32,767 nt of DNA, taken from positions 1 to 32,767 of IMG/VR virus record IMGVR_UViG_3300042691_031334. One strand, written 5' to 3'. The notes beneath the pieces were generated by a model. That model saw only the letters and a program-made list of their open reading frames with translations. It was not told where the DNA came from and ran no database searches. The position numbers and the translations under genes are program-made. This DNA is from a virus. This document shows, piece after piece, positions 7,771-31,443 of the stretch; position 1 is the stretch's first letter; each line of letters begins with the position of its first letter.

Positions 7771-8580
7771 ATGAGTAAGATAGTGAGATTAAAAGAATCT
7801 GATGTAGTCAATATAGTTAAAAGGATTTTAACTGAACAACAGGTAACAAAACAACCAATTAAGATAGGTTGTCGTGACTATGACAAGATAGAAAAATACT
7901 GTACTAATATAAAATTTTCAAAATCAGAGGTAGACTCAATAGGTCGGACGAATACGTCACAGGTTAATCAACGTCTATTAGAAAAAATTGATAATATGTC
8001 AAATAGTATTAAAAAGATAGGGGGTGAAGACAATAAAGCATTTGCTGAAAGATTTTCAAAGTCAATTAATTCAGCAAAAAAGGATATTGTTAAAATTTTA
8101 TCAAAATATTATTACACAGGTCTTTATAGTTTAACAGGTCAGGGTTGGAAAATAAATAAATCCACTCTAACTTTAGAAATTATGAACATAATATATTCTC
8201 TTTTTTTAAAAGGATGGAATAGTAGTATTGTTGATCGTAATGTTGCAAAATATTATGTAGATGAAAAAAACATCGAAAAAGTTCAAAAAGTAGGTAAGGA
8301 TCTTTTAGAAAACCTTCTAATTGAGATAGAAAGTACTGTTGATTTTTATTTTTCAGATTTATCCGCCTTCGTCATTGACAATTATACCAGATCAAAATCC
8401 ACACCAAAATGTACTGACGTAATAATTACCCAAGATAGAGGTTGTAATGATTTACCTGAAGAGAAATGGTATAGCCCAAATAAGAAATACATTACTACTT
8501 ACCAAATATATGGGGATTACAAACCAGCATTTAACACTTACTCACCAATATTGACAAAGTTTTTAAATAGTTTAGTGTAA
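7771..8580 (+). CDS. Putative packaged virion protein with cleavable N-terminal leader, 269 aa
   Basis: Residues 5-22 form the leader shared by many proteins here (VRLKESDVVNIVKRILTE, then Q). The I/L-x-E motif before Q matches the cut-site consensus of T4-type prohead proteases; T4 internal proteins carry short leaders of this kind that direct them into the prohead. The remaining body of about 245 residues is helical, Lys/Ser rich, with two Cys pairs (GCRDYDKIEKYC; C-T-D...GC) that might form disulfides. No enzymatic motif recognised. Monocistronic, behind a type B box. Confidence 0.75.
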   Translation: MSKIVRLKESDVVNIVKRILTEQQVTKQPIKIGCRDYDKIEKYCTNIKFSKSEVDSIGRTNTSQVNQRLLEKIDNMSNSIKKIGGEDNKAFAERFSKSINSAKKDIVKILSKYYYTGLYSLTGQGWKINKSTLTLEIMNIIYSLFLKGWNSSIVDRNVAKYYVDEKNIEKVQKVGKDLLENLLIEIESTVDFYFSDLSAFVIDNYTRSKSTPKCTDVIITQDRGCNDLPEEKWYSPNKKYITTYQIYGDYKPAFNTYSPILTKFLNSLV

Positions 8581-8594
8581 AACACTTAAACAAG

Positions 8595-8624
8595 TTTAGT
8601 TTTCGGGGGTTTTTATTATCTTTG
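8595..8624 (+). promoter_or_regulatory. Type A-like promoter
   Basis: TATCTTTG at 8617-8624, 15 nt before the ATG at 8640. Upstream there is only a TTTA at 8595-8598 (19-bp spacing), a weak match. The preceding bases TTTAGTTTTCGGGG copy the right half of the terminator at 7718 without its left arm. Confidence 0.6.
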
Positions 8625-8639
8625 TATCCAAATTAGGTT

Positions 8640-8864
8640 ATGAAAAGGTTATTATTGTTGGTATTTTTATTCACACTCTCTTGTTTTGATTCCAAAACAG
8701 AACAAAAAGATGTGTATTATATCGTTGTTAAATTAAAGGAAACCAAAGAGTTTTCAAAGTATTATTATTCCACGGATCTTGAAAGGTCCTCGGGTCTTTT
8801 ATATGAAAGATCATTTATTGATTCTTCAAATAAATATTTTGTCGGAGACACGGTAATCAGGTAA
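8640..8864 (+). CDS. Small lipoprotein, 74 aa
   Basis: Lipoprotein signal MKRLLLLVFLFTLSC with lipobox T-L-S-C (Cys 15). The mature region, starting FDSKTEQKDVYYIVVKL, is about 60 residues and Tyr/Ser rich. Probably attached to the inner leaflet of the outer membrane. No homologue recognised. Its TAA is followed by the gene for the F5/8C-like exported protein, so the two may be cotranscribed, although the second also has its own type B box. Confidence 0.75.
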   Translation: MKRLLLLVFLFTLSCFDSKTEQKDVYYIVVKLKETKEFSKYYYSTDLERSSGLLYERSFIDSSNKYFVGDTVIR

Positions 8865-8870
8865 GGAGAT

Positions 8871-8879
8871 GGTATTTAT
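8871..8879 (+). promoter_or_regulatory. Type B promoter box
   Basis: GGTATTTAT, 13 nt before the chosen ATG at 8893. Confidence 0.45.
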
Positions 8880-8892
8880 GTTAAAAGACATC

Positions 8893-10209
8893 ATGAAAAA
8901 GTTATTGTTTATCACAATCCTTACATCCATTTTTACATTATCTTGGGGACAGTGTGCGTCTCAATGCCCTATCTTCACACCGGGTATGACCATTACACAG
9001 GTTAATCCGGGATCACCACCTTTTGGTGAAGATGTGACCAAAGTAATTGATGGAAACAGTAATACCAAATACTTGAACTTTAATAGAACAAATACGGGTT
9101 TTATTGTAAATACCGGAAAGAATACTACCGCTGTTAGGATGGACTTAACCACCGCCAACGATGAACCATCACGAGATCCTATTGATTATCAAATACAGGG
9201 TAGTAATAATGGGACTTCTTGGACTACTATTGCATCAGGTAACATCTCTTGTAACTCTAATAGATTCCTTACTAGAAGTTTTAACTTCACAAATAACACA
9301 TCATATTCTTGGTATAGAATAACATTTACATCAGTCTGTAATCTTAGTTTCGCTAACTCAATGCAAGTCGCCGAGGTGCAACTATATTCAAATAGTGTTA
9401 CACCATCAGTAACAATATCAAGGAGTTCAAATAATGTATGTCAAGGAACTAATATCACATTTACAACAACCCCCACAAATGGTGGTACCCCTACATATCA
9501 GTGGAGGAGAAATGGGTCTAATGTTGTTGGTGCGACAGGTTCTTCATGGATATCAAACAATATAAACAATAACGATGTAATCACTTGTGTTATGACATCA
9601 AACGCGCCTTGTATCACAACATCCAATGTGACATCTAATTCACTAACAATGGGTGTTACCTCAAAAGTAACACCATCAGTATCTATATTAGGAAATCCAT
9701 CTGTGGTTAGAAAAAATACGGTTACCTTACAAGCGTTACCGGTGAATGGTGGTGGAGCACCAACATATAAGTGGTATAAAAATAACGTATTAAAATCCAC
9801 ATCAAATCCTTGGACTGATAGTGCTAACGTTGCGGGTACTGACACAATTAGAGTGGTTATGAGGACTTCCCAATCTTGTATAACTATTGATTCAGCTATT
9901 GCGAATTATAATATCACTGTATTATCTTTAACCGATGTTGATGTATTTCAGACTTTAGATAAAATCCATTTTAGTTTTGTAAAAAACGCTGATGATGTGG
10001 TTTCCATCTATGAGTTTAATGAGAAAACGGGTAAGTCAAGATTGATGACCACAACTACCGACTTAAATGTGGTGTTAGAACATACGTCCAAATACTATTT
10101 AGTAGTTTCAGATGGGTATAGTCGTTATTTTGGACCTTTTTCAATAGTTGCCGAGGAACCTCGTAGAACATTATCAATCAAACAATTACTCGGACAAGTC
10201 GTAGATTAA
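8893..10209 (+). CDS. Exported adhesin-like protein: F5/8C (discoidin)-like plus two Ig-like domains
   Basis: Start at ATG 8893, so that the signal peptide (KKLLFITILTSIFTLSWGQ) begins at the N-terminus; upstream in-frame ATGs at 8869 and 8881 would spoil it. 438 aa. About residues 20-165 resemble an F5/8 type C fold: V-I-D-G-N-S-N-T-K-Y, then Y-Q-I-Q-G-S-N-N-G-T-S-W-T-T-I and A-E-V-Q-L-Y. Two Bacteroidetes-style Ig-like domains follow (CQGTNITFTTTPTNGG...YQWRRNG; VTLQALPVNGG...YKWYKNN). The last 80 residues are another beta domain ending SIKQLLGQVVD, loosely like a T9SS-type tail but without the P-N-P motif. Such domains bind glycans; the host surface or medium is the expected location. Confidence 0.8.
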   Translation: MKKLLFITILTSIFTLSWGQCASQCPIFTPGMTITQVNPGSPPFGEDVTKVIDGNSNTKYLNFNRTNTGFIVNTGKNTTAVRMDLTTANDEPSRDPIDYQIQGSNNGTSWTTIASGNISCNSNRFLTRSFNFTNNTSYSWYRITFTSVCNLSFANSMQVAEVQLYSNSVTPSVTISRSSNNVCQGTNITFTTTPTNGGTPTYQWRRNGSNVVGATGSSWISNNINNNDVITCVMTSNAPCITTSNVTSNSLTMGVTSKVTPSVSILGNPSVVRKNTVTLQALPVNGGGAPTYKWYKNNVLKSTSNPWTDSANVAGTDTIRVVMRTSQSCITIDSAIANYNITVLSLTDVDVFQTLDKIHFSFVKNADDVVSIYEFNEKTGKSRLMTTTTDLNVVLEHTSKYYLVVSDGYSRYFGPFSIVAEEPRRTLSIKQLLGQVVD

Positions 10210-10288
10210 CATAAGTTTAATATAAAGACAATATATAGATAACACCATCTTAATATACCATACCTACTTATTAAAAAACAAAAAGCGT

Positions 10289-11797
10289 ATGGTAAAAAAT
10301 TACTTAATGGTGGTATTATTGTTCTTAACCACAATAACAAAAGGACAATTCTTAGATTCAACGAATTATCGTGGTGCGTTCTCACCAAATCAATCTATGT
10401 GGACCGATGGTTGGTGTAATTGGTCACCCGAATCAACAACGTATCCAACACCAAACGTTACAATTACAGGTAACATTAGTCAGAACACAACTTGGACATC
10501 AAATAATACATATCTTCTTTCAGGACTTGTTTATGTTGATTCTGGTGTGATATTAACCATTCAACCAGGCACAATCATCAGAGGTAATTCAAGTATCTCA
10601 AACTCGTCCTTATTGATTAAAAAAGGTGGTAAGTTAATCGCACAAGGAACATCATCAAATCCTATTGTATTCACATCAAATAATAGTGTGGGAAATAGAA
10701 CCATTGGAGATTGGGGTGGTGTTATCTTATTAGGTAGAGCAACGATGAATCAAGGTGTAGGTTTTATTGAAGGGTTAGCCGCAATATCAGACCATCAATA
10801 TGGTGGTTCAGATGATAATGATAACTCAGGTATCTTATCTTATGTTCGTATTGAGTATGGTGGTTATGTATTCGCACAGAACAAAGAGATCAATGGTTTA
10901 ACTATGGGTGCGGTAGGTAGAGGAACACAGATTGACCACATTCAATGTTCATATATCAATGACGATGCGTTTGAATGGTATGGTGGGTCAGTAAATTGTA
11001 AGTATTTGGTTTCATATAGAAACTTGGATGATGATTTTGATACCGATTTTGGTTATCACGGTTTGGTACAATATGGTTTATCAGTTCGTGATCCACAGAT
11101 TGCAGATAATTCATATACATTACCATCGGGCGGATCAACTTCAGAAGGTTTTGAATCCGACAACGATGCAAATGGTTCAAACTTACAACCATTCACAAAT
11201 GCAACATTTTCAAACTTCACAATGATTGGTCCATTTAGAGGTAATAATAGTTCATCAGTTCACCCGGCATTTAGAAGAGGTGCTAGAATTAGAAGAAACT
11301 CTCAATTAAAGATTGTTAATTCAATCATCTCGGATTGGGCAACAGGAGTTATGATTGATGGTGTTGCGTGTGATTCAAACGCAAGAACAGGTTTATTAGT
11401 TGTGAATAATAACATCATCACAAACTACAGAACAAGAGTGGGTGAAAGAAGTTCATCAAGCACATTCAACGTATTAGGATTTTTGGGTGATAATAACGAC
11501 ACAATTCCGGCAAGTTCAATGATGGTTCGTCCATATGATTTTACAAATCCCGATTATAGATTAAAATCACTATCAACCGACATTATCACATCACAAATAA
11601 CATTATATCCAAACCCATCAAATGGTGAGTTCTTTATTCAATCTGAAAACGATAACCTATGGATATACAATAACTTGGGTCAAGTTGTTCATCAACAAAA
11701 ACTAATAAAAGGAACAAATAATATTCAAGTGAATTTACCGACAGGGTGTTATATTCTCAAAACACAAAATCAAATAATAAAATTAGTAATTAGATAA
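10289..11797 (+). CDS. Exported beta-helix protein with T9SS type A sorting domain
   Basis: 502 aa. Signal peptide MVKNYLMVVLLFLTTITKGQ. The body (about 30-420) has the repeating short strands of a right-handed beta-helix (VTITGNISQNTTW; GVILTIQPGTIIRGNSS; LIKKGGKLIAQGTSSNPIVF) and an Asp/Asn-rich stretch. The last 66 residues (from 437) are a type IX secretion C-terminal domain: ITLYPNPSNGEFFIQ, then the L-W-I-Y-N-N-L-G-Q-V-V strand and L-P-T-G-C-Y-I-L-K. In Bacteroidetes such tails route proteins across the outer membrane to the cell surface. Unusual in a phage: the host machinery should display it on infected cells. An 79-nt gap without a clear promoter separates it from the preceding exported protein, so probably cotranscribed. 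Confidence 0.88.
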   Translation: MVKNYLMVVLLFLTTITKGQFLDSTNYRGAFSPNQSMWTDGWCNWSPESTTYPTPNVTITGNISQNTTWTSNNTYLLSGLVYVDSGVILTIQPGTIIRGNSSISNSSLLIKKGGKLIAQGTSSNPIVFTSNNSVGNRTIGDWGGVILLGRATMNQGVGFIEGLAAISDHQYGGSDDNDNSGILSYVRIEYGGYVFAQNKEINGLTMGAVGRGTQIDHIQCSYINDDAFEWYGGSVNCKYLVSYRNLDDDFDTDFGYHGLVQYGLSVRDPQIADNSYTLPSGGSTSEGFESDNDANGSNLQPFTNATFSNFTMIGPFRGNNSSSVHPAFRRGARIRRNSQLKIVNSIISDWATGVMIDGVACDSNARTGLLVVNNNIITNYRTRVGERSSSSTFNVLGFLGDNNDTIPASSMMVRPYDFTNPDYRLKSLSTDIITSQITLYPNPSNGEFFIQSENDNLWIYNNLGQVVHQQKLIKGTNNIQVNLPTGCYILKTQNQIIKLVIR

Positions 11798-11803
11798 TAA
11801 AAG

Positions 11804-11825
11804 AGGAACTTCGGTTCCTTTTTTT
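11804..11825 (+). terminator. Rho-independent terminator
   Basis: AGGAAC-TTCG-GTTCCT hairpin with the stable TTCG loop, then TTTTTT. Confidence 0.92.
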
Positions 11826-11827
11826 GT

Positions 11828-11836
11828 GATATTTAT
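11828..11836 (+). promoter_or_regulatory. Type B promoter box (endolysin)
   Basis: GATATTTAT, 13 nt before the ATG at 11850. It lies directly behind the terminator. Confidence 0.55.
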
Positions 11837-11849
11837 TAAGAAAACTATT

Positions 11850-12446: not shown

Positions 12447-12454
12447 AATTTGAC

Positions 12455-12482
12455 AATCCCCGATACTACTTCGGGGATTTTT
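12455..12482 (+). terminator. Rho-independent terminator
   Basis: AATCCCCGA (12455-12463) / TCGGGGATT (12471-12479), loop TACTACT, T-rich tail. Nearly repeated at 12971. Confidence 0.9.
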
Positions 12483-12486
12483 GTTG

Positions 12487-12495
12487 TATATTTAC
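12487..12495 (+). promoter_or_regulatory. Type B promoter box
   Basis: TATATTTAC, 5 nt before the ATG at 12501. It sits immediately behind the terminator. Confidence 0.6.
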
Positions 12496-12500
12496 ACTAT

Positions 12501-12959
12501 ATGAGAAAACTATTAACATTTGTACTACTACTAATCGGATTGGTGGGGTACACTCAGACAAATTCACACCAAAGAATTACCGGACGTATCTACACAAGAG
12601 GTCTAAACTTTGTTCCATCCAATAACGACATTCAAATTTTACTTTATGAGGTTGATACTTTTGGTGTTGCAAGACAGACCATCCTATCTAACTATACGGT
12701 TGCACAACAAGGTAATCAGTATGTTATTGACTTTATAAACCCTCCAACACAACAAGTGGTGGTATATGCCAAACTATTACCTGGAAGTCGTTTATATGGT
12801 AAATTTTTAAGCACATTCGGATTATCATCATTGAGTGTGAGACATGCCGTGAAACTTACTATTCCTTTTACACCACTTGGAACCACTTGGTTGGGTCAAT
12901 ATGATATTTATATGGTACCTGATGTTACAGTTATAGATAATAGAAGAAGTATTGATTAA
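12501..12959 (+). CDS. Exported protein, tandem paralogue 1, 152 aa
   Basis: ATG 12501 starts a signal peptide (RKLLTFVLLLIGLVGYTQ); an earlier in-frame ATG at 12450 runs through the terminator and is rejected. The mature part is a single beta-rich domain with D-I-Q-I-L-L-Y-E-V-D-T-F-G-V-A, Q-Y-V-I-D-F and L-Y-G-K-F-L-S-T-F-G. The next gene is a paralogue with about half the residues the same by eye. A type B promoter implies late expression. A periplasmic or surface role is likely; no family recognised. Confidence 0.8.
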   Translation: MRKLLTFVLLLIGLVGYTQTNSHQRITGRIYTRGLNFVPSNNDIQILLYEVDTFGVARQTILSNYTVAQQGNQYVIDFINPPTQQVVVYAKLLPGSRLYGKFLSTFGLSSLSVRHAVKLTIPFTPLGTTWLGQYDIYMVPDVTVIDNRRSID

Positions 12960-13014: not shown

Positions 13015-13473
13015 ATGAGAAAACTATTAACATTCGTACTTCTGCAGATTGGATTGGTGGGGTACACTCAGACAAATGGACATCAATATATGAAAGTCAC
13101 TCTTAGTACAAGTGGCCTAAACATCTTTCCATCATTTCAGGATATTCAAATTGTACTTTATGAAGTTGATACATTTGGAGTGGCAACAGTTATCAATCCA
13201 AACAATTACACCTTGTCGGTACAAGCAAATCAGTATGTTTTCAATTTTGTATTTAAACAATACAAACCGGTTGTTGTATATATAAAAGTTCTACCTAGTG
13301 GCCGACTACACAATAAATTTTTAAGCACGTTTGGAACATCATCTGGAAGTATCAATCGAGCAACTAGAGTAAATGTTCCCAACATACTAGGTGGGAACAA
13401 TACGATAACACACAATGTTTATATGATACCCAAAATCATTAGTTGGGAACCTTACTCCACCTATATTGATTAA
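13015..13473 (+). CDS. Exported protein, tandem paralogue 2, 152 aa
   Basis: Same length and layout as the preceding gene: near-identical signal peptide (RKLLTFVLLQIGLVGYTQ), shared G-L-N-x-x-P-S, D-I-Q-I-V-L-Y-E-V-D-T-F-G-V-A and N-K-F-L-S-T-F-G segments, but divergent elsewhere (for example residues 24-33 and the C-terminus WEPYSTYID). The duplication covers terminator, promoter and gene, so each copy is an independent unit. The strongest conservation is in the leader and the first strands, as expected if the exposed loops have diversified. Confidence 0.8.
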   Translation: MRKLLTFVLLQIGLVGYTQTNGHQYMKVTLSTSGLNIFPSFQDIQIVLYEVDTFGVATVINPNNYTLSVQANQYVFNFVFKQYKPVVVYIKVLPSGRLHNKFLSTFGTSSGSINRATRVNVPNILGGNNTITHNVYMIPKIISWEPYSTYID

Positions 13474-14542: not shown

Positions 14543-14935
14543 TTATTCAAAAATTTGGGGATTTTTCTTCCCATACTTTCTCATGATTTCACCTGCGATT
14601 GCATTAGCATCGTTTTCATGTTTTGATCCTGCAGAACTCTTCCCTTTTTGGTGAAGAGTTTTTTGTTTGTAATGCACTAATTCGTGGGCGATAGTCCTCA
14701 TAATATCACCCTCGTTTCGTTTGTGGGTTGATATCACTATTTGATCATTCTTATCATCAAAATATCCAAAAGATTTATGTTTCTTTGAAAATTCAGAACC
14801 TTTCTTAAACTCAATATCAGGAACATCTTTAAGTTTCAAAAAATCCTTACAATAATCAATAAAATGGTCAAGATCACTCTTTTTTGATTCAACCATCAAC
14901 GACTTTATTCTTGAAATCTCTTCACGTAAATCCAT
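14543..14935 (-). CDS. HExxH metallopeptidase-like protein with packaging-type leader
   Basis: 130 aa. The N-terminus REEISRIKSLMVE then S is a second version of the presumed packaging leader (M-V-E before a small residue). The body carries R-T-I-A-H-E-L-V-H-Y-K-Q (80-91): the H84-E85-x-x-H88 zinc motif of gluzincin-type peptidases, with H-E-N-D-A-N-A-I-A-G-E (106-116) supplying a plausible third ligand (Glu107 or Glu116). The fold may be like small ImmA- or SprT-type peptidases. If the leader is real, a zinc peptidase is carried in the head and injected. Driven by a type B box on the minus strand. Confidence 0.78.
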   Translation of the reverse strand: MDLREEISRIKSLMVESKKSDLDHFIDYCKDFLKLKDVPDIEFKKGSEFSKKHKSFGYFDDKNDQIVISTHKRNEGDIMRTIAHELVHYKQKTLHQKGKSSAGSKHENDANAIAGEIMRKYGKKNPQIFE

Positions 14936-19830: not shown

Positions 19831-20474
19831 TCCCTTAGTTTAATATCATCTAAATATATGTAACCCATACCTTTATTTTCTATATATTCGAACACCTCGT
19901 GAAAATCAATTTTATGTTGGTCGTGCCACGCATAATCAGGTAAGAATTCATCCCAAAAATCAACGTTTTTACCTTTTCTAAAAATACCTCGTATCACATA
20001 ATAAATATCACAATACATCATGCTAATATCCATAGATTCTATTGATACAGTTAATTCCTTATCATTATCTCTCAGAGTATCTACTTTTTGTGCTAATCTA
20101 TCCACCTTATTTCTAAATTCAGGACTTTGATATAACTCACAACAACAGTCACCATTCCAAGGAAATACTAAATCACCATATCTAATTTCAATATCGATCA
20201 TTCCAAATGTTTTACCTCGTTCATAAAACATTAAATTATCAAATATACTATTAACATAAAATTCATACTGTTGTTCTATATACTCACCAACGCGATCAAC
20301 CTTAATTATAAAATCATCTACCAACGGTACCGCCTCAAATACTAACCTAATCTCAGGATGTGATCTCCAAGTATCCTTTTCAATAAAATCTTTCAAATAA
20401 TAATCAACATCACCAAATGTGACTTTGTCTATAGTGAGTTGCAATATCTTAAAAATTTTATATGCCGATATCAT
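19827..20474 (-). CDS. Hypothetical protein, 215 aa
   Basis: Soluble acidic protein starting MISAYKIFKILQLTIDKVTF. A CCCE cluster (W-N-G-D-C-C-C-E-L, about 108-116) is unusual but is not a recognised metal motif. It ends I-Y-L-D-D-I-K-L. Translational coupling on both sides by 4-nt overlaps (ATGA) suggests fixed stoichiometry with the repeat protein upstream and the 217-aa protein downstream. Confidence 0.72.
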   Translation of the reverse strand: MISAYKIFKILQLTIDKVTFGDVDYYLKDFIEKDTWRSHPEIRLVFEAVPLVDDFIIKVDRVGEYIEQQYEFYVNSIFDNLMFYERGKTFGMIDIEIRYGDLVFPWNGDCCCELYQSPEFRNKVDRLAQKVDTLRDNDKELTVSIESMDISMMYCDIYYVIRGIFRKGKNVDFWDEFLPDYAWHDQHKIDFHEVFEYIENKGMGYIYLDDIKLRE

Positions 20475-21115
20475 AATGTTTTAATTATATTATTAATATC
20501 TGTAGTAAGTGATGATTTATCCACTCTTCTTATATAACCCAAATCTGTTCTTAAAATATTAATCCAATTCTTTTTATATTTAACATCCGTCCTATTTGTA
20601 GTTCTTTCACTCTTATAAAGATCATTCAATTTTTGATATAGTTCTTTGAGTTGCGGTCTATTGAATATTTGTGGATACGTTTTATAAATCCCATCATAAA
20701 TTGTTTCCAATTTGTTGTTCTTAACTCCGTCCGTTATCTTTGTAAATATAGATGACAACATTTGTGAATCTCTAGAACTTAGTTCTGCAACCATTTTCTC
20801 TTCGGTTGGTTTTTCACCTTGCTTATACCCTGTGATATTTGAAACGTCCGTAGTTCCTGAGACTGGTTGTTTATATCCCGAAGTAAGTGATGATATGTCA
20901 GTACCTTTTGTTTTTTGATTATATCCCGAGGTTAAACTCGCAATATCCGTTCCTTTAGTTTTTTGACCATAACCCGAAGTTAATTTTGATATATCGGTAC
21001 TTCCTTGTGTAGATTGTGTGTATCCGCTAGTGAATTGAGAAATGTTTGTCTGTTCTATCATATACATTGATAGAATTTGTATTTTTTCACTTTCGGAAAT
21101 TATAAATTTGCTCAT
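20471..21115 (-). CDS. Putative packaged protein with leader and TSGY repeats, 214 aa
   Basis: The leader (FIISESEKIQILSMYMIE then Q) is the S/T-E-S-E-K variant also seen on the next protein, with I-E before Q as the presumed cut site. Residues 28-110 are five imperfect repeats of about 16 residues around D-I-x-x-L-T-S-G-Y-x-Q-K-T-K-G-T. The remaining C-terminal half is helical (SSIFTKITDGVKNNKLETIY). The repeat region is Gly/Thr/Tyr rich and probably extended or phase-separating. It lies in an operon with a PG-binding virion protein. Confidence 0.76.
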   Translation of the reverse strand: MSKFIISESEKIQILSMYMIEQTNISQFTSGYTQSTQGSTDISKLTSGYGQKTKGTDIASLTSGYNQKTKGTDISSLTSGYKQPVSGTTDVSNITGYKQGEKPTEEKMVAELSSRDSQMLSSIFTKITDGVKNNKLETIYDGIYKTYPQIFNRPQLKELYQKLNDLYKSERTTNRTDVKYKKNWINILRTDLGYIRRVDKSSLTTDINNIIKTL

Positions 21116-21120
21116 TTATT

Positions 21121-22029
21121 TTAATCATCTAAATTGTTGGAAGACGGTGTAGTTCTTTTTGGTGAATTACTTGCCAAATTTTGATTGGTGTTACTTGGTG
21201 TGTTTAATGCCGCAATATCACTAGCACTAGTATTATCATCAGTCATACTTGGATTACTCATTCCAATTTCTTTTTTAAATAACTCACCATATTTGGCACA
21301 ACTAGTTTTTCCAAATTTACCACTTACAGGTGTTACACCATTTTTCTTTTGCCAATTCATCAACGCTTGACGAGTTTCGTTACCAAATTTCTTATCGTTT
21401 TTAGCACCGGTTAATCCAATAATTGTTTGAACTTGCCCAACAGACTCACCTTTCATACCGTATTGTATTATTTTAGTACCTTGACACGCCTCTTGGAATG
21501 TTGGTGCCTGTACAAAAGTTGCCGCTTGTTGATTAGTTTTAGGGTTTGTATTCTGTTGGGGTTTCTGTGATCCCAACGTATAATCAATTTTTATTGATCC
21601 TGTTTTCAAATCTTGATTACCATAAGCATCGGTTTCGACTTGATATGTTAATTTTACACCCGCTTTACCTAAAATCGCGGCATAGTTTTTTACGTCTGCA
21701 AGATTGTCTGATTCCATTTCACCATTTAACATTGTTTGAATGGTTTGTTTTTCAAACTTCACAAAATCAGTATCCAACTCTCTATAATCGTTAGGTGATT
21801 TAACTAAGTTAAATACGGTAGCAATCACTTTCTCATTAGTATCCATTGCTTGAGTTGTCTTTGATGCTAAGAAATATGCGGGATCATTAATACCCGACGC
21901 TTTAGCACGATCTTTGAGTGATGTTGTTGCTTGTTCATAAAGAACCGACTTAAACTCAGTTTTAACTTCTCTCTCATAAAGAGACAGTATATTATTTTTT
22001 TCAGATTCTGTTAATTTTATTCTACTCAT
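21121..22029 (-). CDS. Putative packaged protein with peptidoglycan-binding domain, 302 aa
   Basis: The N-terminal leader RIKLTESEKNNILSLYERE resembles those of the other predicted packaged proteins, although the cut-site fit (Y-E-R-E) is looser. About residues 180-250 are a PG_binding_1-type domain: QYGMKGESVGQVQTIIGL, then DKKFGNETRQALMNWQKKNG and K-F-G-K-T-S-C-A-K. The C-terminal tail is Asn/Ser/Thr rich. Such domains bind peptidoglycan; in a virion protein they would help the phage through the cell wall during entry. First gene of a four-gene operon with a type B box. Confidence 0.82.
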   Translation of the reverse strand: MSRIKLTESEKNNILSLYEREVKTEFKSVLYEQATTSLKDRAKASGINDPAYFLASKTTQAMDTNEKVIATVFNLVKSPNDYRELDTDFVKFEKQTIQTMLNGEMESDNLADVKNYAAILGKAGVKLTYQVETDAYGNQDLKTGSIKIDYTLGSQKPQQNTNPKTNQQAATFVQAPTFQEACQGTKIIQYGMKGESVGQVQTIIGLTGAKNDKKFGNETRQALMNWQKKNGVTPVSGKFGKTSCAKYGELFKKEIGMSNPSMTDDNTSASDIAALNTPSNTNQNLASNSPKRTTPSSNNLDD

Positions 22030-23619: not shown

Positions 23620-23931
23620 TCAAAAGAACTTTGTCAAACGTGACTGTTGGGTGTTTATACCCTCAATTTGAAAGGTTTCACCAACCCATCTACCCATAAG
23701 TGATTCTAACATAGATACTTCCATAGGAATGTAGCGAAGAATTTGATCAATAATATCACGATAGATTGATAAATAATTTTCATTTTTCAATCCCAAATGA
23801 CCATATTCTTCAGGATCTATAAACCAAATATTACCATTTCTATATTTTCTCCATTCATAATTCTTAAACTGAGTTTCCATAAATTTTTTGAAAACAGGAT
23901 ATAACTTATCTTCTGTTACTTTAACTTTCAT
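23620..23931 (-). CDS. Member of the Y-x-W / R-W-V paralogue family, 103 aa
   Basis: Shares with the tandem array at 27778-29169 the N-terminal pattern K-V-x-V-T-E-D-x-L-x-x-x-F-x-K-F-M (2-18), the N-Y-E-W motif (24-27), and the C-terminal R-Y-I-P...L-M-G-R-W-V-G-E-T-F (about 66-86). Function unknown. Its ATG overlaps the stop of the upstream gene by 4 nt. The N-terminal helix resembles the packaging leader without an obvious cut site, so these proteins may use the same recognition without processing (inference). Confidence 0.75.
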   Translation of the reverse strand: MKVKVTEDKLYPVFKKFMETQFKNYEWRKYRNGNIWFIDPEEYGHLGLKNENYLSIYRDIIDQILRYIPMEVSMLESLMGRWVGETFQIEGINTQQSRLTKFF

Positions 23932-24849: not shown

Positions 24850-25028
24850 AAATTTTTATTTTTAATTAACATAATGATCCAAGCAATAATCATTAAAGGG
24901 TAAAACACGATCATTGCCAATCTTTCCGGCCAAGTGAACGGGTCTGTTGCCTTATAAATGTCATTCAACCATTCAACAACAAACCCGAACAAAATACCAA
25001 TAATAAAATATGTCGTAACAGGATTCAT
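24846..25028 (-). CDS. Small two-helix membrane protein, 60 aa
   Basis: Two hydrophobic helices (TYFIIGILFGFVVEW, 5-19; RLAMIVFYPLMIIAWIIMLI, 36-55) joined by a polar loop with D-I-Y-K-A-T-D-P-F-T-W-P-E. It overlaps clpP and the DUF1653 gene by 4 nt each, so all three should be made together. It might bring ClpP activity to the membrane; this is inference from context. Confidence 0.72.
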   Translation of the reverse strand: MNPVTTYFIIGILFGFVVEWLNDIYKATDPFTWPERLAMIVFYPLMIIAWIIMLIKNKNL

Positions 25029-25729
25029 CGGTTTAATACCTCTTTTTGGTAATACTCATTAAACCCTTCCAATAAAGAGGTAACGGATTGATTAGTTTCC
25101 AATCCAATAACCGTATCAATCAAACCAAACTCAACCGCTTCATCAGAATTAAACCATTTATCACGACTTGATACATTCAATACCTCGTCAAAACTCTTTC
25201 CTGTGTTTTGAGATAAGATCTTAAATAAGATGTAATTGTATTTTTCACCTTCCATTTGAGAGATTCGGGTATCTTGGACATTACCCCTCATTCCGTGAGA
25301 CACTTGGTGTGTCATTACCTTAGCGTGAATCAATGAATGTCTCTTACCTTTGGTTCCCGATGACAATAGAACCGAACCCATCGAGGCACACATTCCTATA
25401 TTGACCGTAGAAACGTCAGATTTGACGTAATTCATTAGATCTACTATTCCGAGACCATCTACCACCGAACCACCCGGAGAATTGATATAAAGGGTTATAT
25501 CACGTTTTTCCACGGAATCCAAATAAAGGAGTTGGGCTTGGACAATGTCAGACATATGCTGATCAACAGGACCTGACACCCAAATGATACGATCTCTCAT
25601 TAAACGAGAAAATACATCCATCTGTGTGGCTCGCAATTCACGTTCTTCCAAAATGTAAGGGGTTAATCCCGCATTGACATCAATATACTTGTTAATGTCA
25701 GTTTTTGATAATCCAAAATGTTTTTCCAT
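25025..25729 (-). CDS. clpP: ClpP-family serine protease
   Basis: Start at ATG 25729 (MEKHFGLSKTDINKY), because the type A box ends 4 nt before it; the frame extends 45 nt upstream through the promoter. 234 aa. The full catalytic triad is visible: Ser116 in G-M-C-A-S-M-G-S, His141 in V-M-T-H-Q-V-S-H-G, Asp190 in S-S-R-D-K-W-F. Also Y-I-N-S-P-G-G-S-V (81-89) and the E-A-V-E-F-G-L-I-D ending. ClpP forms a barrel-shaped peptidase with Clp unfoldases. No capsid genes are adjacent, and the promoter is host-like, so a role in steering host proteolysis is more likely than head maturation. Confidence 0.92.
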   Translation of the reverse strand: MEKHFGLSKTDINKYIDVNAGLTPYILEERELRATQMDVFSRLMRDRIIWVSGPVDQHMSDIVQAQLLYLDSVEKRDITLYINSPGGSVVDGLGIVDLMNYVKSDVSTVNIGMCASMGSVLLSSGTKGKRHSLIHAKVMTHQVSHGMRGNVQDTRISQMEGEKYNYILFKILSQNTGKSFDEVLNVSSRDKWFNSDEAVEFGLIDTVIGLETNQSVTSLLEGFNEYYQKEVLNR

Positions 25730-25733
25730 ACGA

Positions 25734-25765
25734 CAAAGGTAAAACATATTTTTGAAAGTTCCAAA
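25734..25765 (-). promoter_or_regulatory. Type A promoter (clpP), minus strand
   Basis: On the minus strand: TTTG (25765-25762), 20-bp spacer, TACCTTTG (25741-25734), TCGT, then ATG at 25729. Predicts a leaderless mRNA. Confidence 0.78.
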
Positions 25766-26232: not shown

Positions 26233-26236
26233 CAAT

Positions 26237-26725
26237 ATGAACATATTCTTTTTAGACTACGATGTAAAAAAATGTGCTGAAGATCATTGTGATAAGCACG
26301 TTGTGAAAATGATTTTGGAAACTGCCCAATTATTGTGCGGTGTACATCACGCCACGGAACAGGAAACACCAAATGTCCCATATAAATTATCACACAAAAA
26401 TCACCCTTGTGCTATATGGTCTCGTCAATCATTAACTAACTACTTGTATCTATGTGAGTTAGGGTTAGAGTTATGTTATGAATACACCAAAAGATACGGG
26501 AAAACTCACAAGTCACAACAAGTAATTGAATGGTGTATTGAAAACAAACCTGAGATTGTTGATCTTGGATTTACGGATCCGCCGAAAGCGATGCCTGATG
26601 AATATAAGGTCGATGATGTGGTTCAATCATATCGGAATTATTATATCGGAGATAAATTAAAATTTGCAAAATGGAAAACAGGACATATTCCTTCTTGGAT
26701 GGAAGATATTTATGTATATGTTTAA
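26237..26725 (+). CDS. Conserved phage/bacterial protein of unknown function, 162 aa
   Basis: The pattern M-N-I-F-F-L-D-Y-D...A-E-D-H-C-D-K-H-V-V-K-M-I-L-E-T-A-Q-L-L (1-33, split) is that of a family I recall in many large phages. Conserved polar residues include C-D-K-H (19-22), E28, H-K-N-H-P-C-A-I-W (53-61), the Y-x-x-R-Y-G-K-T-H-K-S region and P-D-E-Y-K...Y-R-N-Y-Y. Repeated His/Cys/Glu suggest a metal-dependent enzyme, but no activity is known to me. The type A-like promoter suggests early expression. Confidence 0.8.
   Translation: MNIFFLDYDVKKCAEDHCDKHVVKMILETAQLLCGVHHATEQETPNVPYKLSHKNHPCAIWSRQSLTNYLYLCELGLELCYEYTKRYGKTHKSQQVIEWCIENKPEIVDLGFTDPPKAMPDEYKVDDVVQSYRNYYIGDKLKFAKWKTGHIPSWMEDIYVYV
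26705..26713 (+). promoter_or_regulatory. Type B promoter box inside the upstream gene
   Basis: GATATTTAT, 4 nt before the ATG at 26718; it lies in the last codons of the preceding gene. Confidence 0.5.
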
Positions 26726-27236
26726 AGAGTTTGCACAAGTATTATTAAATATCCCGATGAAACAACGATTACTTGGTTTGGTAATTATTGTTCTTGCTTT
26801 TGTTGGAATGGAACTCGGATTGTCGTTGATTAAAACAAAAAATCCTGAGACCGAAGAAATGAAAAAAACTATCAGTACATTAAGGATTGAATTACAAATC
26901 ACAAGAGAGAGTGTTGTGGAGGCTCAAAGCCAACTATCAAAATTAAACACAAGGATTATTGAAAGTGAGATGGGTTGTACGAATAAAATAATGTCAAGAG
27001 AACAAGAGATTTGGAAAATGATTGACTCTGTTCAGAGAATTATGAAAACTCATAACAACAAACAACTTCAGACAATTGAAAAAGTTACGACATCATATTA
27101 TGATCCTAATGACACAGGAGTTGTTGTTTCAGCGATGGTATTACCACCAAAAACCAAAAAGGTTATTGTAAAGGATAACACTGAAGCGATTGAAGCGATG
27201 GATCTAATTAAGAAAAAGATTAAAAAATCAAAATAA
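26718..27236 (+). CDS. Membrane-anchored coiled-coil protein, 172 aa
   Basis: ATG 26718 is set by the type B box; the gene overlaps the end of the previous one by 8 nt. One membrane helix (LLGLVIIVLAFVGMELGLSL, about 18-37) followed by a long coiled coil (MKKTISTLRIELQITRES to about residue 115) and a Lys-rich tail (LIKKKIKKSK). Topology like the protein at 17653 (spanin-like), but here alone. It overlaps the convergent gene by 9 nt. Confidence 0.7.
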   Translation: MFKEFAQVLLNIPMKQRLLGLVIIVLAFVGMELGLSLIKTKNPETEEMKKTISTLRIELQITRESVVEAQSQLSKLNTRIIESEMGCTNKIMSREQEIWKMIDSVQRIMKTHNNKQLQTIEKVTTSYYDPNDTGVVVSAMVLPPKTKKVIVKDNTEAIEAMDLIKKKIKKSK

Positions 27237-27743
27237 TCCTCTAAATTCTTTTGGTAGATATAGAAAAATCTCATCATTAGTATAGTCCATATCAACTTCA
27301 CTTTCTTCAGGAAGTTCGTTAATTAATTTGAACAAAGTTTCGTACAATTCAGAATTAAAAGGAAACTTCACAAGAATACTATCAAAACCACTTGCAGATC
27401 CTCTCAAACTTTCTTTATCTACTTCACCATCATACATTTTAATTAATGCGGTTACATAGAATCCAAAACTTTCGTTATCAGGACTAACCTCCTGAGTTTT
27501 ATAACGTTGATCGGGATCATAACTAACTTCCTCTTCTTCATCATTATCAATTAATGATGATGGTATATCTGTTTTACCACCTGATATTAGATATAATTGT
27601 TCTTCTTCAGATAATGCGTCAAAACCTTTTTCATTATATAGATCTAATACTTTATTGTAAGCATCCTCATCATATGCTTCGGTTATTACTTTTTTGATCA
27701 GACGGACCAACTCAGATTCGGTAAGTTTTATAATTTTTTTCAT
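27228..27743 (-). CDS. Putative packaged protein with canonical leader, 171 aa
   Basis: Best example of the leader: LTESELVRLIKKVITE (7-22), then A, i.e. I-T-E before Ala, as in T4 head-protein cut sites. Next comes Y-N-K-V-L-D-L-Y-N-E-K-G-F-D-A-L-S-E-E-E-Q (30-50, split), a short helical module like those at the ends of Bacteroidetes rhomboid-type proteins (DUF6576-like; recalled, not tested). A very acidic linker (DNDEEEEVSYDPD) and a C-terminal alpha/beta part follow. Type B box 4 nt before the ATG. Confidence 0.78.
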   Translation of the reverse strand: MKKIIKLTESELVRLIKKVITEAYDEDAYNKVLDLYNEKGFDALSEEEQLYLISGGKTDIPSSLIDNDEEEEVSYDPDQRYKTQEVSPDNESFGFYVTALIKMYDGEVDKESLRGSASGFDSILVKFPFNSELYETLFKLINELPEESEVDMDYTNDEIFLYLPKEFRGLF

Positions 27744-27747
27744 AACA

Positions 27748-27756
27748 ATAAATATT
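27748..27756 (-). promoter_or_regulatory. Type B promoter box
   Basis: AATATTTAT on the minus strand, 4 nt before the ATG at 27743. Confidence 0.5.
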
Positions 27757-27777
27757 CTTTGTAATTAAAAAGTTGAA

Positions 27778-28119
27778 TCAATCTTGATTTAGATATGCCG
27801 CACTTACAGAATATATTCCACTGAGGTTAAGCTTCTTAAAAATAACCTTCTTAAGTGCTTGTAAAAGAGTTTTTTCATCAACAGGAAAAAATTCTTCAAC
27901 AGTTATCATAAATTTTTCATCAAAATACATAACATTCGAACGCCAACCGGAGGAATTTAACGAAACATATATCATTTTATAATCATCTGTTTTATTAATA
28001 AAAAACATTACCTCTCCCTCAACTGGAACCCACTTGTAATTCTTCTCAGGAAAAGTCATATCAAAGAACCTCTCTAACACTACAGACAATTGGTCAATAT
28101 TAACAACAACTTTTTTCAT
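27778..28119 (-). CDS. Tandem paralogue family, copy 4 (113 aa)
   Basis: Pattern shared with the three genes upstream: N-terminal strand-helix (VVVNIDQLSVVLERFFD, 4-20), N-Y-K-W (27-30), a central beta sheet with I-Y-V-S-L-N-S, and the end F-F-P-V-D-E-K-T-L-L-Q-A-L-K-K-V. In this copy the family Trp-Val-Glu is replaced by V-I-F-K-K, so it is the most diverged. Overlaps the previous gene by 4 nt (ATGA). Function unknown. Confidence 0.72.
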   Translation of the reverse strand: MKKVVVNIDQLSVVLERFFDMTFPEKNYKWVPVEGEVMFFINKTDDYKMIYVSLNSSGWRSNVMYFDEKFMITVEEFFPVDEKTLLQALKKVIFKKLNLSGIYSVSAAYLNQD

Positions 28120-28463
28120 AAATCATAAGGTATATCATCCAACAAGAAATTAAATTCTGTGTGACGTTGGATCGGTGTGATGTTTAATTCGGATTTAATC
28201 CATTCTATCAAGTGTCTTATAATAGTTTCCCATCTAATGGGAATGGAATTTTCTATAGATTTGGTAAATTCGGGATTAAATTTAAACGTTTCGTATTTTG
28301 GGTTGTACCCCATCAATGCCACATTATTTTTGTCCAAAAATAAATTTTGAAATCTTGTTTCATTTTGAGGTTCAACCCAACGAGAACCATTACTTTTATA
28401 TAATTTGTCAATATATAATGACAATAGGGTGTATATTTGGTCGTCATTTAATTTAACATTCAT
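28116..28463 (-). CDS. Tandem paralogue family, copy 3 (115 aa)
   Basis: Starts MNVKLNDDQIYTLLSLYIDK; S-R-W-V (28-31) replaces Y-x-W; F-T-K-S-I-E-N-S-I-P-I (70-80) and H-L-I-E-W-I-K-S-E-L-N-I (86-97) match the family's C-terminal signature. The tail F-L-L-D-D-I-P-Y-D-L is specific to this copy. 4-nt overlaps on both sides indicate coupled translation. Confidence 0.72.
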   Translation of the reverse strand: MNVKLNDDQIYTLLSLYIDKLYKSNGSRWVEPQNETRFQNLFLDKNNVALMGYNPKYETFKFNPEFTKSIENSIPIRWETIIRHLIEWIKSELNITPIQRHTEFNFLLDDIPYDL

Positions 28464-28789
28464 ATTCTAATAAATCTTAATATATTTGATGGTAGAACCA
28501 TACCTACCCTTAAATCTAACACCTTCTCGACCCATTTTGCTAACGCATCATATAGTCTTTCTCTATCAAAAGGAATAAATTGTTTAAGTATTTCATAAAA
28601 TGATTCATTAATATATAGAAAGTTTTTCTTACCTTCATAATGTTCTTCATATTCTACAATACTTTCACCTTTTTGGTTTTCAAAAACATAAAAATTACCT
28701 TTTTTATTCCATGAATAATCCGCATAATTAGATTTAATAAATAAATCAATTAATTTAAATACTTGTTGTTCTAATACCGATACTTTCAT
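28460..28789 (-). CDS. Tandem paralogue family, copy 2 (109 aa)
   Basis: Starts MKVSVLEQQVFKLIDLFIKS; D-Y-S-W (24-27), Y-I-N-E-S-F-Y-E-I-L-K-Q-F-I-P-F-D (about 59-75) and A-L-A-K-W-V-E-K-V-L-D-L-R-V (82-95). These positions define the family well: an N-terminal helix, a small beta sheet with an exposed aromatic pair, and a C-terminal W-V-E helix. No catalytic residues stand out. Its ATG shares one base with the previous stop (TAATG). Confidence 0.74.
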   Translation of the reverse strand: MKVSVLEQQVFKLIDLFIKSNYADYSWNKKGNFYVFENQKGESIVEYEEHYEGKKNFLYINESFYEILKQFIPFDRERLYDALAKWVEKVLDLRVGMVLPSNILRFIRI

Positions 28790-29169
28790 TATGATAATTT
28801 TGCCGGTGTTTTATTAATTTTTTCTACCTTTACATTCAACTTTTCTTCAACCCATTTTACTATAAATTCAATAATAAGATCTTCATTTACTGGTATATAT
28901 CGTTTCAAATCATTAACAAACTCATTCGTAATAAATAACCGATCACTAGTAATTCCAAAAGGTCCTTTACCAAGAGTTAAATGATAAAAACTCAAAACAG
29001 TATTGTTTTTTTCAGAATTAGAAAATGAAAATGAATAACCATGTTGATATAATATAGCAGTTTTAGACCCTTGAATAATTTTCTTTTCCCATTCATACTT
29101 TTTATATGCCGCGTCCATAAATTTACAAAACAACGAATATATCTGATCAGATGTCATTTTTAATTCCAT
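28789..29169 (-). CDS. Tandem paralogue family, copy 1 (126 aa)
   Basis: Start at ATG 29169 (MELKMTSDQIYSLFCKFMD), 4 nt after the type B box; the longer frame from 29193 spans the box. K-Y-E-W (24-27), L-F-I-T-N-E-F-V-N-D-L-K-R-Y-I-P-V-N (about 79-96) and F-I-V-K-W-V-E-E-K-L-N-V-K-V (101-115). Head of the four-gene array. An insertion near residues 35-65 makes it the longest copy. Confidence 0.74.
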   Translation of the reverse strand: MELKMTSDQIYSLFCKFMDAAYKKYEWEKKIIQGSKTAILYQHGYSFSFSNSEKNNTVLSFYHLTLGKGPFGITSDRLFITNEFVNDLKRYIPVNEDLIIEFIVKWVEEKLNVKVEKINKTPAKLS

Positions 29170-29173
29170 ATAG

Positions 29174-29182
29174 ATAAATACC
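29174..29182 (-). promoter_or_regulatory. Type B promoter box (paralogue array)
   Basis: GGTATTTAT on the minus strand, 4 nt before the ATG at 29169; the only promoter seen for the four-gene array. Confidence 0.5.
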
Positions 29183-29191
29183 ACAAAAAAC

Positions 29192-29217
29192 AAAAAACCC
29201 CAATCCGAAGATCAGGG
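29192..29217 (-). terminator. Terminator, dispersed repeat copy 1
   Basis: On the minus strand: CCCTGATC-TTCG-GATTGGGG then T6. The 20 bases 29198-29217 recur exactly at 31472-31491. It ends the gene at 29240. Confidence 0.88.
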
Positions 29218-29239
29218 TCGATAATTTTTAACCAAATAA

Positions 29240-29560
29240 TTACTTGGACATTTCTTTCATAAAACGTTTGGCTATAGGATTTTTTGAATAAACATCACCC
29301 AATGATTTGAAATCGTTCATTTTGATTGATCTTTCAATCGCATCAATTATTGCCGTGTTTTTATTCGTTTTGAACCACTGTTTCGCACCCATCTTATTTT
29401 TTGAATATAGGTCAGCCAATTTTTTGCCGAACTTTTCATTTTCATTTGCTTGTTCAGACACAAAACCTGACATACCAACCAAGGATCTATTTTGTTCTAA
29501 GATAACTTTCTTAACTAATCTAACCAAATCGGATTCGGTCAATGTAATAACTTTTTTCAT
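29240..29560 (-). CDS. Putative packaged protein with canonical leader, 106 aa
   Basis: Leader LTESDLVRLVKKVILE (7-22) then Q: I-L-E before Gln is the predicted cut. A second possible site, F-V-S-E before Q, lies at residues 33-36. The mature product of about 70-84 residues is basic and helical (KFGKKLADLYSKNKMGAKQW; R-F-M-K-E-M-S-K), like the small basic internal proteins of T4 heads that enter with the DNA. Own promoter and terminator. Confidence 0.78.
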   Translation of the reverse strand: MKKVITLTESDLVRLVKKVILEQNRSLVGMSGFVSEQANENEKFGKKLADLYSKNKMGAKQWFKTNKNTAIIDAIERSIKMNDFKSLGDVYSKNPIAKRFMKEMSK

Positions 29561-29576
29561 AACTAACGTTTTTTAT

Positions 29577-29585
29577 ATAAATATA
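29577..29585 (-). promoter_or_regulatory. Type B promoter box
   Basis: TATATTTAT on the minus strand, 16 nt before the ATG at 29560. Confidence 0.5.
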
Positions 29586-29607
29586 TTCAGATTAAGAAAA
29601 GAATATT

Positions 29608-29796
29608 TTATTCGGGATTAACTTTCCAACGAACACGATAAAGAGCATAATTTTCATCCCACTCAATCTCAGAATACGGACCACCATCAGACGGACCAAA
29701 ATCACATATAATATCATCGAGTCTAACACCAGAATTTTCGATCAGAAAATTCATGGCTTCACTTGCATTCATATCGTTAACCATCATTCTATTCAT
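29608..29796 (-). CDS. Small hypothetical protein, 62 aa
   Basis: Start at ATG 29796 (MNRMMVNDMNASEAMNFLIE), 4 nt after a perfect type B box; the long frame up to 29943 overlaps the neighbouring gene and is rejected. The C-terminus is acidic and aromatic (PYSEIEWDENYALYRVRWKV). No recognised domain. Probably monocistronic, leaderless. Confidence 0.7.
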   Translation of the reverse strand: MNRMMVNDMNASEAMNFLIENSGVRLDDIICDFGPSDGGPYSEIEWDENYALYRVRWKVNPE

Positions 29797-29800
29797 AATG

Positions 29801-29809
29801 ATAAATATA
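29801..29809 (-). promoter_or_regulatory. Type B promoter box
   Basis: TATATTTAT on the minus strand, 4 nt before the ATG at 29796. Confidence 0.6.
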
Positions 29810-29824
29810 AACCAATTTTCAAAA

Positions 29825-30382
29825 TTATTCTTCCCAATGATATATTTTAACGGTTGCCGATTTTCCCATACAATCCAAATGATCAAGTACTTCCAATTCA
29901 TTACCTTGATAATAGATCTTATCAATAATTCCCCATTCAACATCGGGGGTTAATACGGATGATTTCAAATATGTAAAGTCATCTGATTTGGGGACATCAT
30001 CAGATTCAAACTCATATGAAAAGATTCCACCCTTGAATTCATCGACGCTAAAATAGACAGAAGAATTTTCGGAAGGGAAAACCTCATAATCGTCAGGTTC
30101 CACATTTTCATTTTTCACAATGTCTTCAATTCCGAATTCCAAAATCAATAATCCATTTTCATCCAGGACCTCAAACAACATTGTTTCATTATCAAAAGGT
30201 TTTGTCATATGAAGGACATCACCATCCCACACATCAAAGGTTTCCAAATCAAAACGAATTTCACCAACATCATCAATCCCGTTTTCTTCCATAAAACGAT
30301 TGATAAAATTAACCTCACGATCAGATAGGGTTTTACCAATAAAATCAGCATTCCACCCATAAGTATTAAGAAGATATCTCAT
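29825..30382 (-). CDS. Hypothetical acidic protein, 185 aa
   Basis: Start at ATG 30382 (MRYLLNTYGWNADFIGKTLS), fixed by the type A box 4 nt upstream. Very acidic, beta-rich chain with repeated D/E-rich turns (EFGIEDIVKNENVEPDDYEVF), predicted soluble; strong negative charge is typical of DNA-mimic or antirestriction proteins but also of many phage proteins. It is the only type A gene among type B genes in this stretch, so it should be made earlier than its neighbours. No family recognised. Confidence 0.73.
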   Translation of the reverse strand: MRYLLNTYGWNADFIGKTLSDREVNFINRFMEENGIDDVGEIRFDLETFDVWDGDVLHMTKPFDNETMLFEVLDENGLLILEFGIEDIVKNENVEPDDYEVFPSENSSVYFSVDEFKGGIFSYEFESDDVPKSDDFTYLKSSVLTPDVEWGIIDKIYYQGNELEVLDHLDCMGKSATVKIYHWEE

Positions 30383-30386
30383 GATG

Positions 30387-30417
30387 CAAATATAACATAT
30401 AAAAAACCCCAATCAAA
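30387..30417 (-). promoter_or_regulatory. Type A promoter nested in a terminator, minus strand
   Basis: On the minus strand: TTTG (30417-30414), 19-bp spacer, TATATTTG (30394-30387), CATC, ATG at 30382. The TTTG lies in the loop and stem of the terminator at 30401-30426. Confidence 0.7.
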
Positions 30418-30426
30418 GGATCGGGG
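30401..30426 (-). terminator. Terminator, related to the dispersed repeat
   Basis: On the minus strand: CCCCGATC-CTTT-GATTGGGG then T6, with one mismatch in the stem. It ends the gene at 30450. Confidence 0.85.
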
Positions 30427-30449
30427 TTATAAAATATTTTAGAAACGTG

Positions 30450-31016
30450 TTATACAAACTTAAGTATTTCACTCATTTTATTAATAATTTCTTTAAGTTT
30501 TCCAGGTTCTCTCTCAAATGTCTCTTTGGCGTCCATCTTACTTTTTTCAATATTAAACGGAGCATCAAGTTTTTTAAACAAAGTCCGTTGCAAAGACACA
30601 TATTTCTTTGTAAACTCAGATAATGACATCTCGGGATTTACGGGTCGTTTATTTGTTCTACGAGCCCTCGCCGCATAACCATCTATCATATTTACAGTAT
30701 CTACTTCAACATCCAAAGACTCTTCAACCCACCGTTTAATGTAAGAATAGAAACTCGGTTCATCATATGGAAGTTCATTCATAAATAAACGACTTGCCTC
30801 CACGGTTCTCGTTGGGCGGTAATATCCAACATACGGAGTCATCATCCCGTTATCTATGAATATTACTGAGTCATCACCATCTCCAGCCCAATCAGCATCA
30901 GGGAAAAAATGATTAATATCATCTTTGAAGTCTTCATACCCTTCTTCTTGTTCATTAACAACACGTTTAACCAATCTAATCAAATCGGATTCCGTCAATC
31001 TAATTGTTTTTTTCAT
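30450..31016 (-). CDS. Putative packaged protein: leader fused to a paralogue-family domain, 188 aa
   Basis: Leader LTESDLIRLVKRVVNE (7-22) then Q-E: V-N-E before Gln is the predicted cut. About residues 28-108 then look like the domain of the tandem paralogue array: D-A-D-W, a beta sheet with S-V-I-F-I-D-N-G, F-M-N-E-L-P-Y-D and S-Y-I-K-R-W-V-E-E-S-L-D-V-E-V. A basic helical C-terminal part follows (ARARRTNKRPVNPEMSLSEF). This fusion links the leader to the paralogue family directly. Type B box 15 nt upstream. Confidence 0.78.
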   Translation of the reverse strand: MKKTIRLTESDLIRLVKRVVNEQEEGYEDFKDDINHFFPDADWAGDGDDSVIFIDNGMMTPYVGYYRPTRTVEASRLFMNELPYDEPSFYSYIKRWVEESLDVEVDTVNMIDGYAARARRTNKRPVNPEMSLSEFTKKYVSLQRTLFKKLDAPFNIEKSKMDAKETFEREPGKLKEIINKMSEILKFV

Positions 31017-31031
31017 ATTTCGTTTTTAGTT

Positions 31032-31040
31032 ATAAATATT
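31032..31040 (-). promoter_or_regulatory. Type B promoter box
   Basis: AATATTTAT on the minus strand, 15 nt before the ATG at 31016. Confidence 0.5.
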
Positions 31041-31056
31041 ATCAAAAATGAAAGAA

Positions 31057-31443
31057 TTATTCATCACAAAAAGTTGAGATTTCATCAAAATAATAGTCTT
31101 CAATCATATTACCAAATCTAAGTTCGATAAAATAATACATCTTATCCTGAAGCCACTCACTTCCGTACGCTTTATCCAAAGGATCATAAGAATACATAAA
31201 TGTGACAACACTAGATTTAATCACCTCTTCCAAATATTTGGAATACTCACCCAAATAATCACAAGGGTTTATCTCATACGATCCCTCCCCAACAATATCT
31301 CTAAGATGGTTCATTATTTCATTATCGTTGGATCGTCTTAAAAGCCATGACCAAGCCATCAGTTCATCTTTGGTGGCTTCTTGTTCATTGATAACCTTTT
31401 TTATCAATCCAATCAATTCATCTTCAGTTAATCTAACTTTCAT
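31057..31443 (-). CDS. Putative packaged protein with canonical leader, 128 aa
   Basis: Start at ATG 31443, 4 nt after a perfect type B box; the frame extends to 31467 through the box. Leader KVRLTEDELIGLIKKVINE (2-20) then Q-E: I-N-E before Gln is the predicted cut. The mature part is about 108 residues, acidic and aromatic, with E-L-M-A-W-S-W-L-L-R-R-S and the end L-R-F-G-N-M-I-E-D-Y-Y-F-D-E-I-S. Its function inside the head is unknown. Confidence 0.77.
   Translation of the reverse strand: MKVRLTEDELIGLIKKVINEQEATKDELMAWSWLLRRSNDNEIMNHLRDIVGEGSYEINPCDYLGEYSKYLEEVIKSSVVTFMYSYDPLDKAYGSEWLQDKMYYFIELRFGNMIEDYYFDEISTFCDE

Follow-up and report, generated by a model that had tools for sequence, protein, structure and literature searches.

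A candidate T4-like capsid-targeting system with distinct leader sequences in a giant uncultured phage

Eight genes of a virus fragment of 32.8 kb (the window, that is, the whole stretch of 32,767 nucleotides analysed here) begin with short leaders that form three families with a common exit. The leaders are very probably cleaved, head-directed propeptides, similar in kind to the capsid targeting sequences of T4, and together they are best interpreted as an extensive system for capsid targeting, T4-like but using leader sequences of its own. It also appears likely, with less confidence, that the proteins carrying them are injected into the bacterium. In T4, the prohead protease gp21 recognises L/I-X-E and cuts behind the glutamate, and the propeptides that it takes off measure 7-65 residues (PMC9026906); the first ten residues of the IP leaders suffice for packaging, which is why these leaders were named capsid targeting sequences.

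The window phage and its host

The window overlaps two longer records, G001 (IMG/VR 3300008262_000003, 165.5 kb), with 100% identity over 20,334 bases, and G065 (46.8 kb), with 99.97% identity over 9,990 bases; the three together represent about 215 kb of one phage. Its DNA polymerase shares 65-76% identity with those of a clade that encodes an S77 protease and carries the leaders. The description of the window as DNA of a Bacteroidetes phage, made in an earlier sequence-only reading, is favoured by the gene at 10289-11797, which has a type IX secretion sorting tail (Por_Secre_tail, 9e-9) and thus suggests a host among the Bacteroidota; against it, a Flavobacterium phage and a Microcystis phage are about equally close by capsid similarity. 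The leader pattern gave 20 matches in GTDB genomes, none of which was confirmed, so that no host name was obtained.

Other genes of the window include a SET-domain protein (306-617, 3e-8) and an SPFH/Band 7 protein (3661-4518, 1.5e-16). The genes at 12450-12959 and 13015-13473 are tandem paralogs, whose DNA is about 82% identical at one end, and near copies of the gene at 23620-23931 are found in G001 at 34.1 kb and at 145-146 kb.

Three leader families

Start positions and N-termini of the eight genes are as first reported, and the five that were said to share one leader (7771, 27228, 29240, 30450 and 31057) all match the class-1 matrix at the gene start. The remaining three had been considered variants of the same module: they do carry leaders with the same exit, but these belong to two separate families and are not loose copies, gene 14543 having a class-2 leader (MNLQENIxRI... 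type) and genes 20471 and 21121 class-3 leaders (h(I/L)(T/S)ExEKxxILxLY/H type). The features are the following.

7771..7836, plus strand: class-1 leader MSKIVRLKESDVVNIVKRILTE/Q of gene 7771-8580; matrix score 46 bits, at gene start
14888..14935, minus strand: class-2 leader MDLREEISRIKSLMVE/S of the M78-type metallopeptidase gene 14543-14935; Pfam PF06114, 4.6e-6; E/S junction common to orthologs
21053..21115, minus strand: class-3 leader MSKFIISESEKIQILSMYMIE/Q of gene 20471-21115; class-3 matrix
21934..22029, minus strand: class-3 leader of gene 21121-22029 (PG-binding); class-3 matrix; PG_binding_1 1e-4, just under the cutoff
27678..27743, minus strand: class-1 leader MKKIIKLTESELVRLIKKVITE/A of gene 27228-27743; score 57 (g1 14795)
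27778..29166, minus strand: leaderless paralogs 27778, 28116, 28460 and 28789, neighbours of 30450; alignment with 30450
29495..29560, minus strand: class-1 leader MKKVITLTESDLVRLVKKVILE/Q of gene 29240-29560; score 59 (g1 16807)
30951..31016, minus strand: class-1 leader MKKTIRLTESDLIRLVKRVVNE/Q of gene 30450-31016; score 63
31384..31443, minus strand: class-1 leader MKVRLTEDELIGLIKKVINE/Q of gene 31057-31443; score 38 (g1 18624)

The class-1 matrix has 21 columns, the start methionine and P1' being left out, and was applied to about 2,640 proteins of G001, G002, G005-G010 and the 5' part of the window at a threshold of 12 bits, the best reversed-sequence score being 9.9 bits. The leader was found in 81 proteins of these eight records and the window, well beyond the genes listed at first; 76 have it at the gene start, and no reversed protein exceeded the threshold. 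Matches per record were 17 in G007, 12 in G005, 10 each in G006 and G010, nine in G009, eight each in G008 and G002, and seven in the window phage, which adds G001 55139 and 79773 to the five window genes. A few leader-like segments lie inside proteins; an LTExELIxxIEKIxxE segment is found in the interior of one protein family (G005 306427, G006 271627, G010 204054). When IMG/VR was searched with the leader alignment, 244 loci were confirmed and 80 of them retained; tblastn against INPHARED gave no match with the leader, which is a short query, and a literature search found no paper describing the leader.

Leader genes often lie in tandem runs, an arrangement that would favour copying of a DNA-level module, such as a recombination seed or a translation signal, from gene to gene, with no function in the protein. 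This origin of the common starts is very improbable, since identical leader residues are encoded by different codons in 31-46% of cases, which indicates selection on the peptide and not on the DNA, and since conservation follows an amino-acid pattern and stops at a protein position.

The other two families show the same ending: an h-x-E end is present in 52 of 56 class-2 leaders (93%, against 35% of control windows) and in 27 of 32 leaders of class 3, the h-x-T/S-E-x-E-K-x-x-I-L family (84% against 32%). Counts outside class 1 are approximate, because some MKhhITES proteins are similar to class 3 and yet have the appearance of folded domains. At locus L006, 2.8-11.4 kb (G001 22.8-31.4 kb), several class-2 leader genes follow one another, and one of them has an ADP-ribosyltransferase domain; two MRLRLTExQLRxLTEGILLE/D genes adjoin this run.

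The exit site

Statistics on the exit were obtained from the 78 class-1 leaders with a nearby start codon. Glutamate occupies P1 in 76 of them and I, L or V occupies P3 in 77, the leader ending in I/V-x-E in 76 cases. At P1', the residues I, K, L, V, R, Y, W, F, P and C amount to 1%, compared with 26-51% at positions P2'-P10'. The constraint therefore ends one residue past the glutamate, on bodies that are unrelated, as expected for the subsite of a protease, and we infer, with good support, that the restriction at P1' marks the predicted scissile bond after the glutamate. Over the first 10 residues of proteins outside class 1, hxE[SQA] still shows a 2.3-fold enrichment, and none is seen for hxD, hxK or Exh.

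In gene 21121, the cut had been placed at YERE-V, which does not fit hxE and was misplaced; the exit of this leader is probably SVLYE/QATTS, at residue 32.

Head genes and the S77 protease of the relatives

A gp21-like prohead protease had been proposed as the enzyme to look for. No match to S77, capsid or portal was found in the approximately 215 kb of the window phage, from which the whole head module is absent, and extension of both contig ends did not recover it; on the other hand, the clade sharing its polymerase does have S77, next to portal, core and gp23-type capsid genes. A genome devoid of a prohead protease, which had been named as a refutation, is not what these data indicate. All eight leader records of at least 250 kb, most of which have the polymerase type of the window phage, encode S77, and the leader records negative for S77 also lack intact capsid and portal genes. 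As proof, this co-occurrence was rejected on a nadV control, in which 17 of 19 large contigs have S77 and nearly all are without the leader; it is weak evidence, which passes a test that could have failed.

Twenty modules in the relatives comprise, in this order, terminase, portal, two core-like genes, S77 protease, scaffold and a gp23-type capsid gene. PHROGs names the module genes portal (213), head maturation protease (207) and major head protein (138); the clade capsid protein was found by PHROGs, the Pfam gp23 model having no match in G001-G003. The proteins of this module carry sites that match the exit of the leaders. The capsid propeptide ends in LINE/A or S in 19 of the 19 seen, the S77 protease has hhxE/S/N/A near residue 35, and the gp67-like core protein contains 9.0 hxE sites against 2.3 in shuffles. 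Against the T4-type reading, the P1' preference differs, being Q/E/S in leaders and S/N/A at core sites (rank correlation only 0.43, p=0.06). Two further structural proteins, encoded after the capsid gene and before the terminase gene, vary at the N-terminus in length and sequence, and most of these N-termini end in hxE/A/S/T, the junction of the latter protein being lost in three jumbo orthologs; one of the N-termini is the class-1-like MGNLTNREIDNIVKRVLNE/APIDY. Immuto, the nearest cultured flavophage, has S77 and the capsid site and no class-1 leader. Two short proteins resemble pieces of the capsid protein (G033 20995-21390, locus L253, and G013 79735-80244, locus L251), the former corresponding to the propeptide region with its cut site lost.

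The window itself encodes a ClpP-like protease (25025-25738), whose PHROGs matches bear the name "head maturation protease", so it might be the cutting enzyme in place of S77. This is highly improbable in view of its strong match to cellular ClpP (Pfam 1e-56) and of the S77 gene of the relatives, which lies inside the head module and has an hxE site itself.

The scaffold was considered as a source of the leader and discarded, scaffolds not being ranked high by the leader matrix. The gp67-like core gene (L121-L140) has LTES/LNES repeats and, by this matrix, is placed among the highest non-leader proteins in five of six genomes, at about the top 3%, a suggestive finding by which the core protein may possibly be what the leaders mimic in docking.

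Leader exchange in M78 peptidases

The M78 peptidase of the window (14543) starts with MDLREEISRIKSLMVE/S, where its orthologs in other phages have T4-like leaders: MKTFVEFLTE/S, MKKYTEFLTE/S, MNLQQFLTE/S or MKPFRQFLNE/S. The body and the E/S junction are kept and the leader is changed. The first two of these starts are near-identical to MKTYQEFIAE/A, with which T4 ipII and ipIII begin (NC_000866), whereas leaders of classes 1-3 have no visible match to it. G059, a record with an ortholog of this kind, has S77; the ortholog of cyanophage B23 starts with MNYKQFLRE/S, and that of S-SRM01 has no cut site. Because the head proteins of the relatives carry hxE/A/S sites and the M78 orthologs carry T4-like leaders, the earlier interpretation of the leader as T4-type with a gp21-like cut is supported.

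The leader might instead remain uncut, as an N-terminal strand and helix docking on another structure of the phage or of the cell, with hxE representing only the end of the helix. LTES does resemble a helix cap after a strand, and many MKhhITES proteins have this start without the terminal hxE. Such docking is nevertheless unlikely: it would not account for a restriction confined to P1', for three unrelated leaders with one exit, for the same sites in head proteins of the relatives, or for the M78 orthologs. Cleavage of the leader during head maturation is thus the preferred reading.

Bodies and cargo

After the leader, the 78 class-1 proteins have a median mature length of 107 aa and fall into 69 body clusters. 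This largely agrees with the statement that the bodies have nothing in common; an exception is 30450, whose body appears, by weak alignments (19-29% identity), to be related to the leaderless 27778, 28116, 28460, 28789 and 23620. The peptidase and the PG-binding protein reported among the leader genes were both recovered, as 14543 and, by a match just under the cutoff, 21121. Other leader bodies are TseH-like, GH19 and PG-binding proteins, and bodies vary between phages. An ART-PolyVal protein of the window phage (E=3e-13) starts with the leader MNLQEHIRKVLRE/E, its gene lying in the run of leader genes at G001 22.8-31.4 kb. The ART-PolyVal family was named from polyvalent phage proteins and is tied to virion-borne anti-host functions.

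Proteins cleaved in the prohead could also belong to the core or scaffold and afterwards be degraded or lost, and not injected. Most fragments of the T4 core proteins leave the head (PMC9026906), and hxE-rich core proteins are found in the relatives. This fate has a low probability for the leader proteins, as their bodies resemble effectors (ADP-ribosyltransferase, TseH-like, GH19, M78) and differ between phages, as in T4 IPs; injected cargo is the likelier reading.

Comparison with known systems

The closest likeness is to IPI, IPII, IPIII and Alt of T4 with gp21, where a short N-terminal leader with an hxE exit precedes unrelated proteins; the relatives of the window phage share with T4 the order of the head module with S77, and the leader on an ADP-ribosyltransferase in the window phage recalls Alt. 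Unlike those of T4, the leaders of classes 1-3 are mostly longer (13-32 residues) and have other sequences, with about 20-30 candidate cargoes per genome against about four. SPN3US and phiKZ are also giant phages with many processed internal proteins; in the parts of the source consulted, their propeptides are mostly long (111-254 residues), with only two of 20-24, compared with 13-32 here, and no common short leader is reported (PMC10052503). Finally, the window phage shares the ART-PolyVal domain with the polyvalent or Dar-type proteins carried in phage heads, from which it differs by a separate short leader placed before a single domain.

Proposed mechanism and significance

According to the proposed mechanism, an N-terminal helix of 13-32 residues, which probably binds core proteins, would bring its protein into the core of the prohead, and as the head matures, the S77 protease of the gp21 type encoded by the phage would cut after h-x-E. 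The cargo in its mature form would remain in the head with the DNA and presumably be injected along with it. More than 20 cargo proteins of the phage, among them an ADP-ribosyltransferase, a metallopeptidase and a peptidoglycan-binding protein, would carry leaders of at least three different sequences that share one exit site. For the window phage, we infer from its genes and those of its relatives that the protease would be present and that cleavage, packaging and injection would take place. A broader view, tentative and at slightly less than even chances, is that of a general code for head export, in which interchangeable leaders, perhaps mimics of the LTES-rich core, load 20-30 or more fast-changing effectors into each virion, a repertoire that could be read from sequence.

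The proteins injected by T4 are few, and their list took decades of genetics. If the leader has the meaning that it has in T4, sequence would be enough to list what hundreds of giant phages, as yet uncultured, carry in their heads, and such lists would add up to a catalogue of anti-host and anti-defence candidates, most without a known domain. The leaders of classes 1, 2 and 3 would also be new sequences for trials of loading proteins into phage heads.
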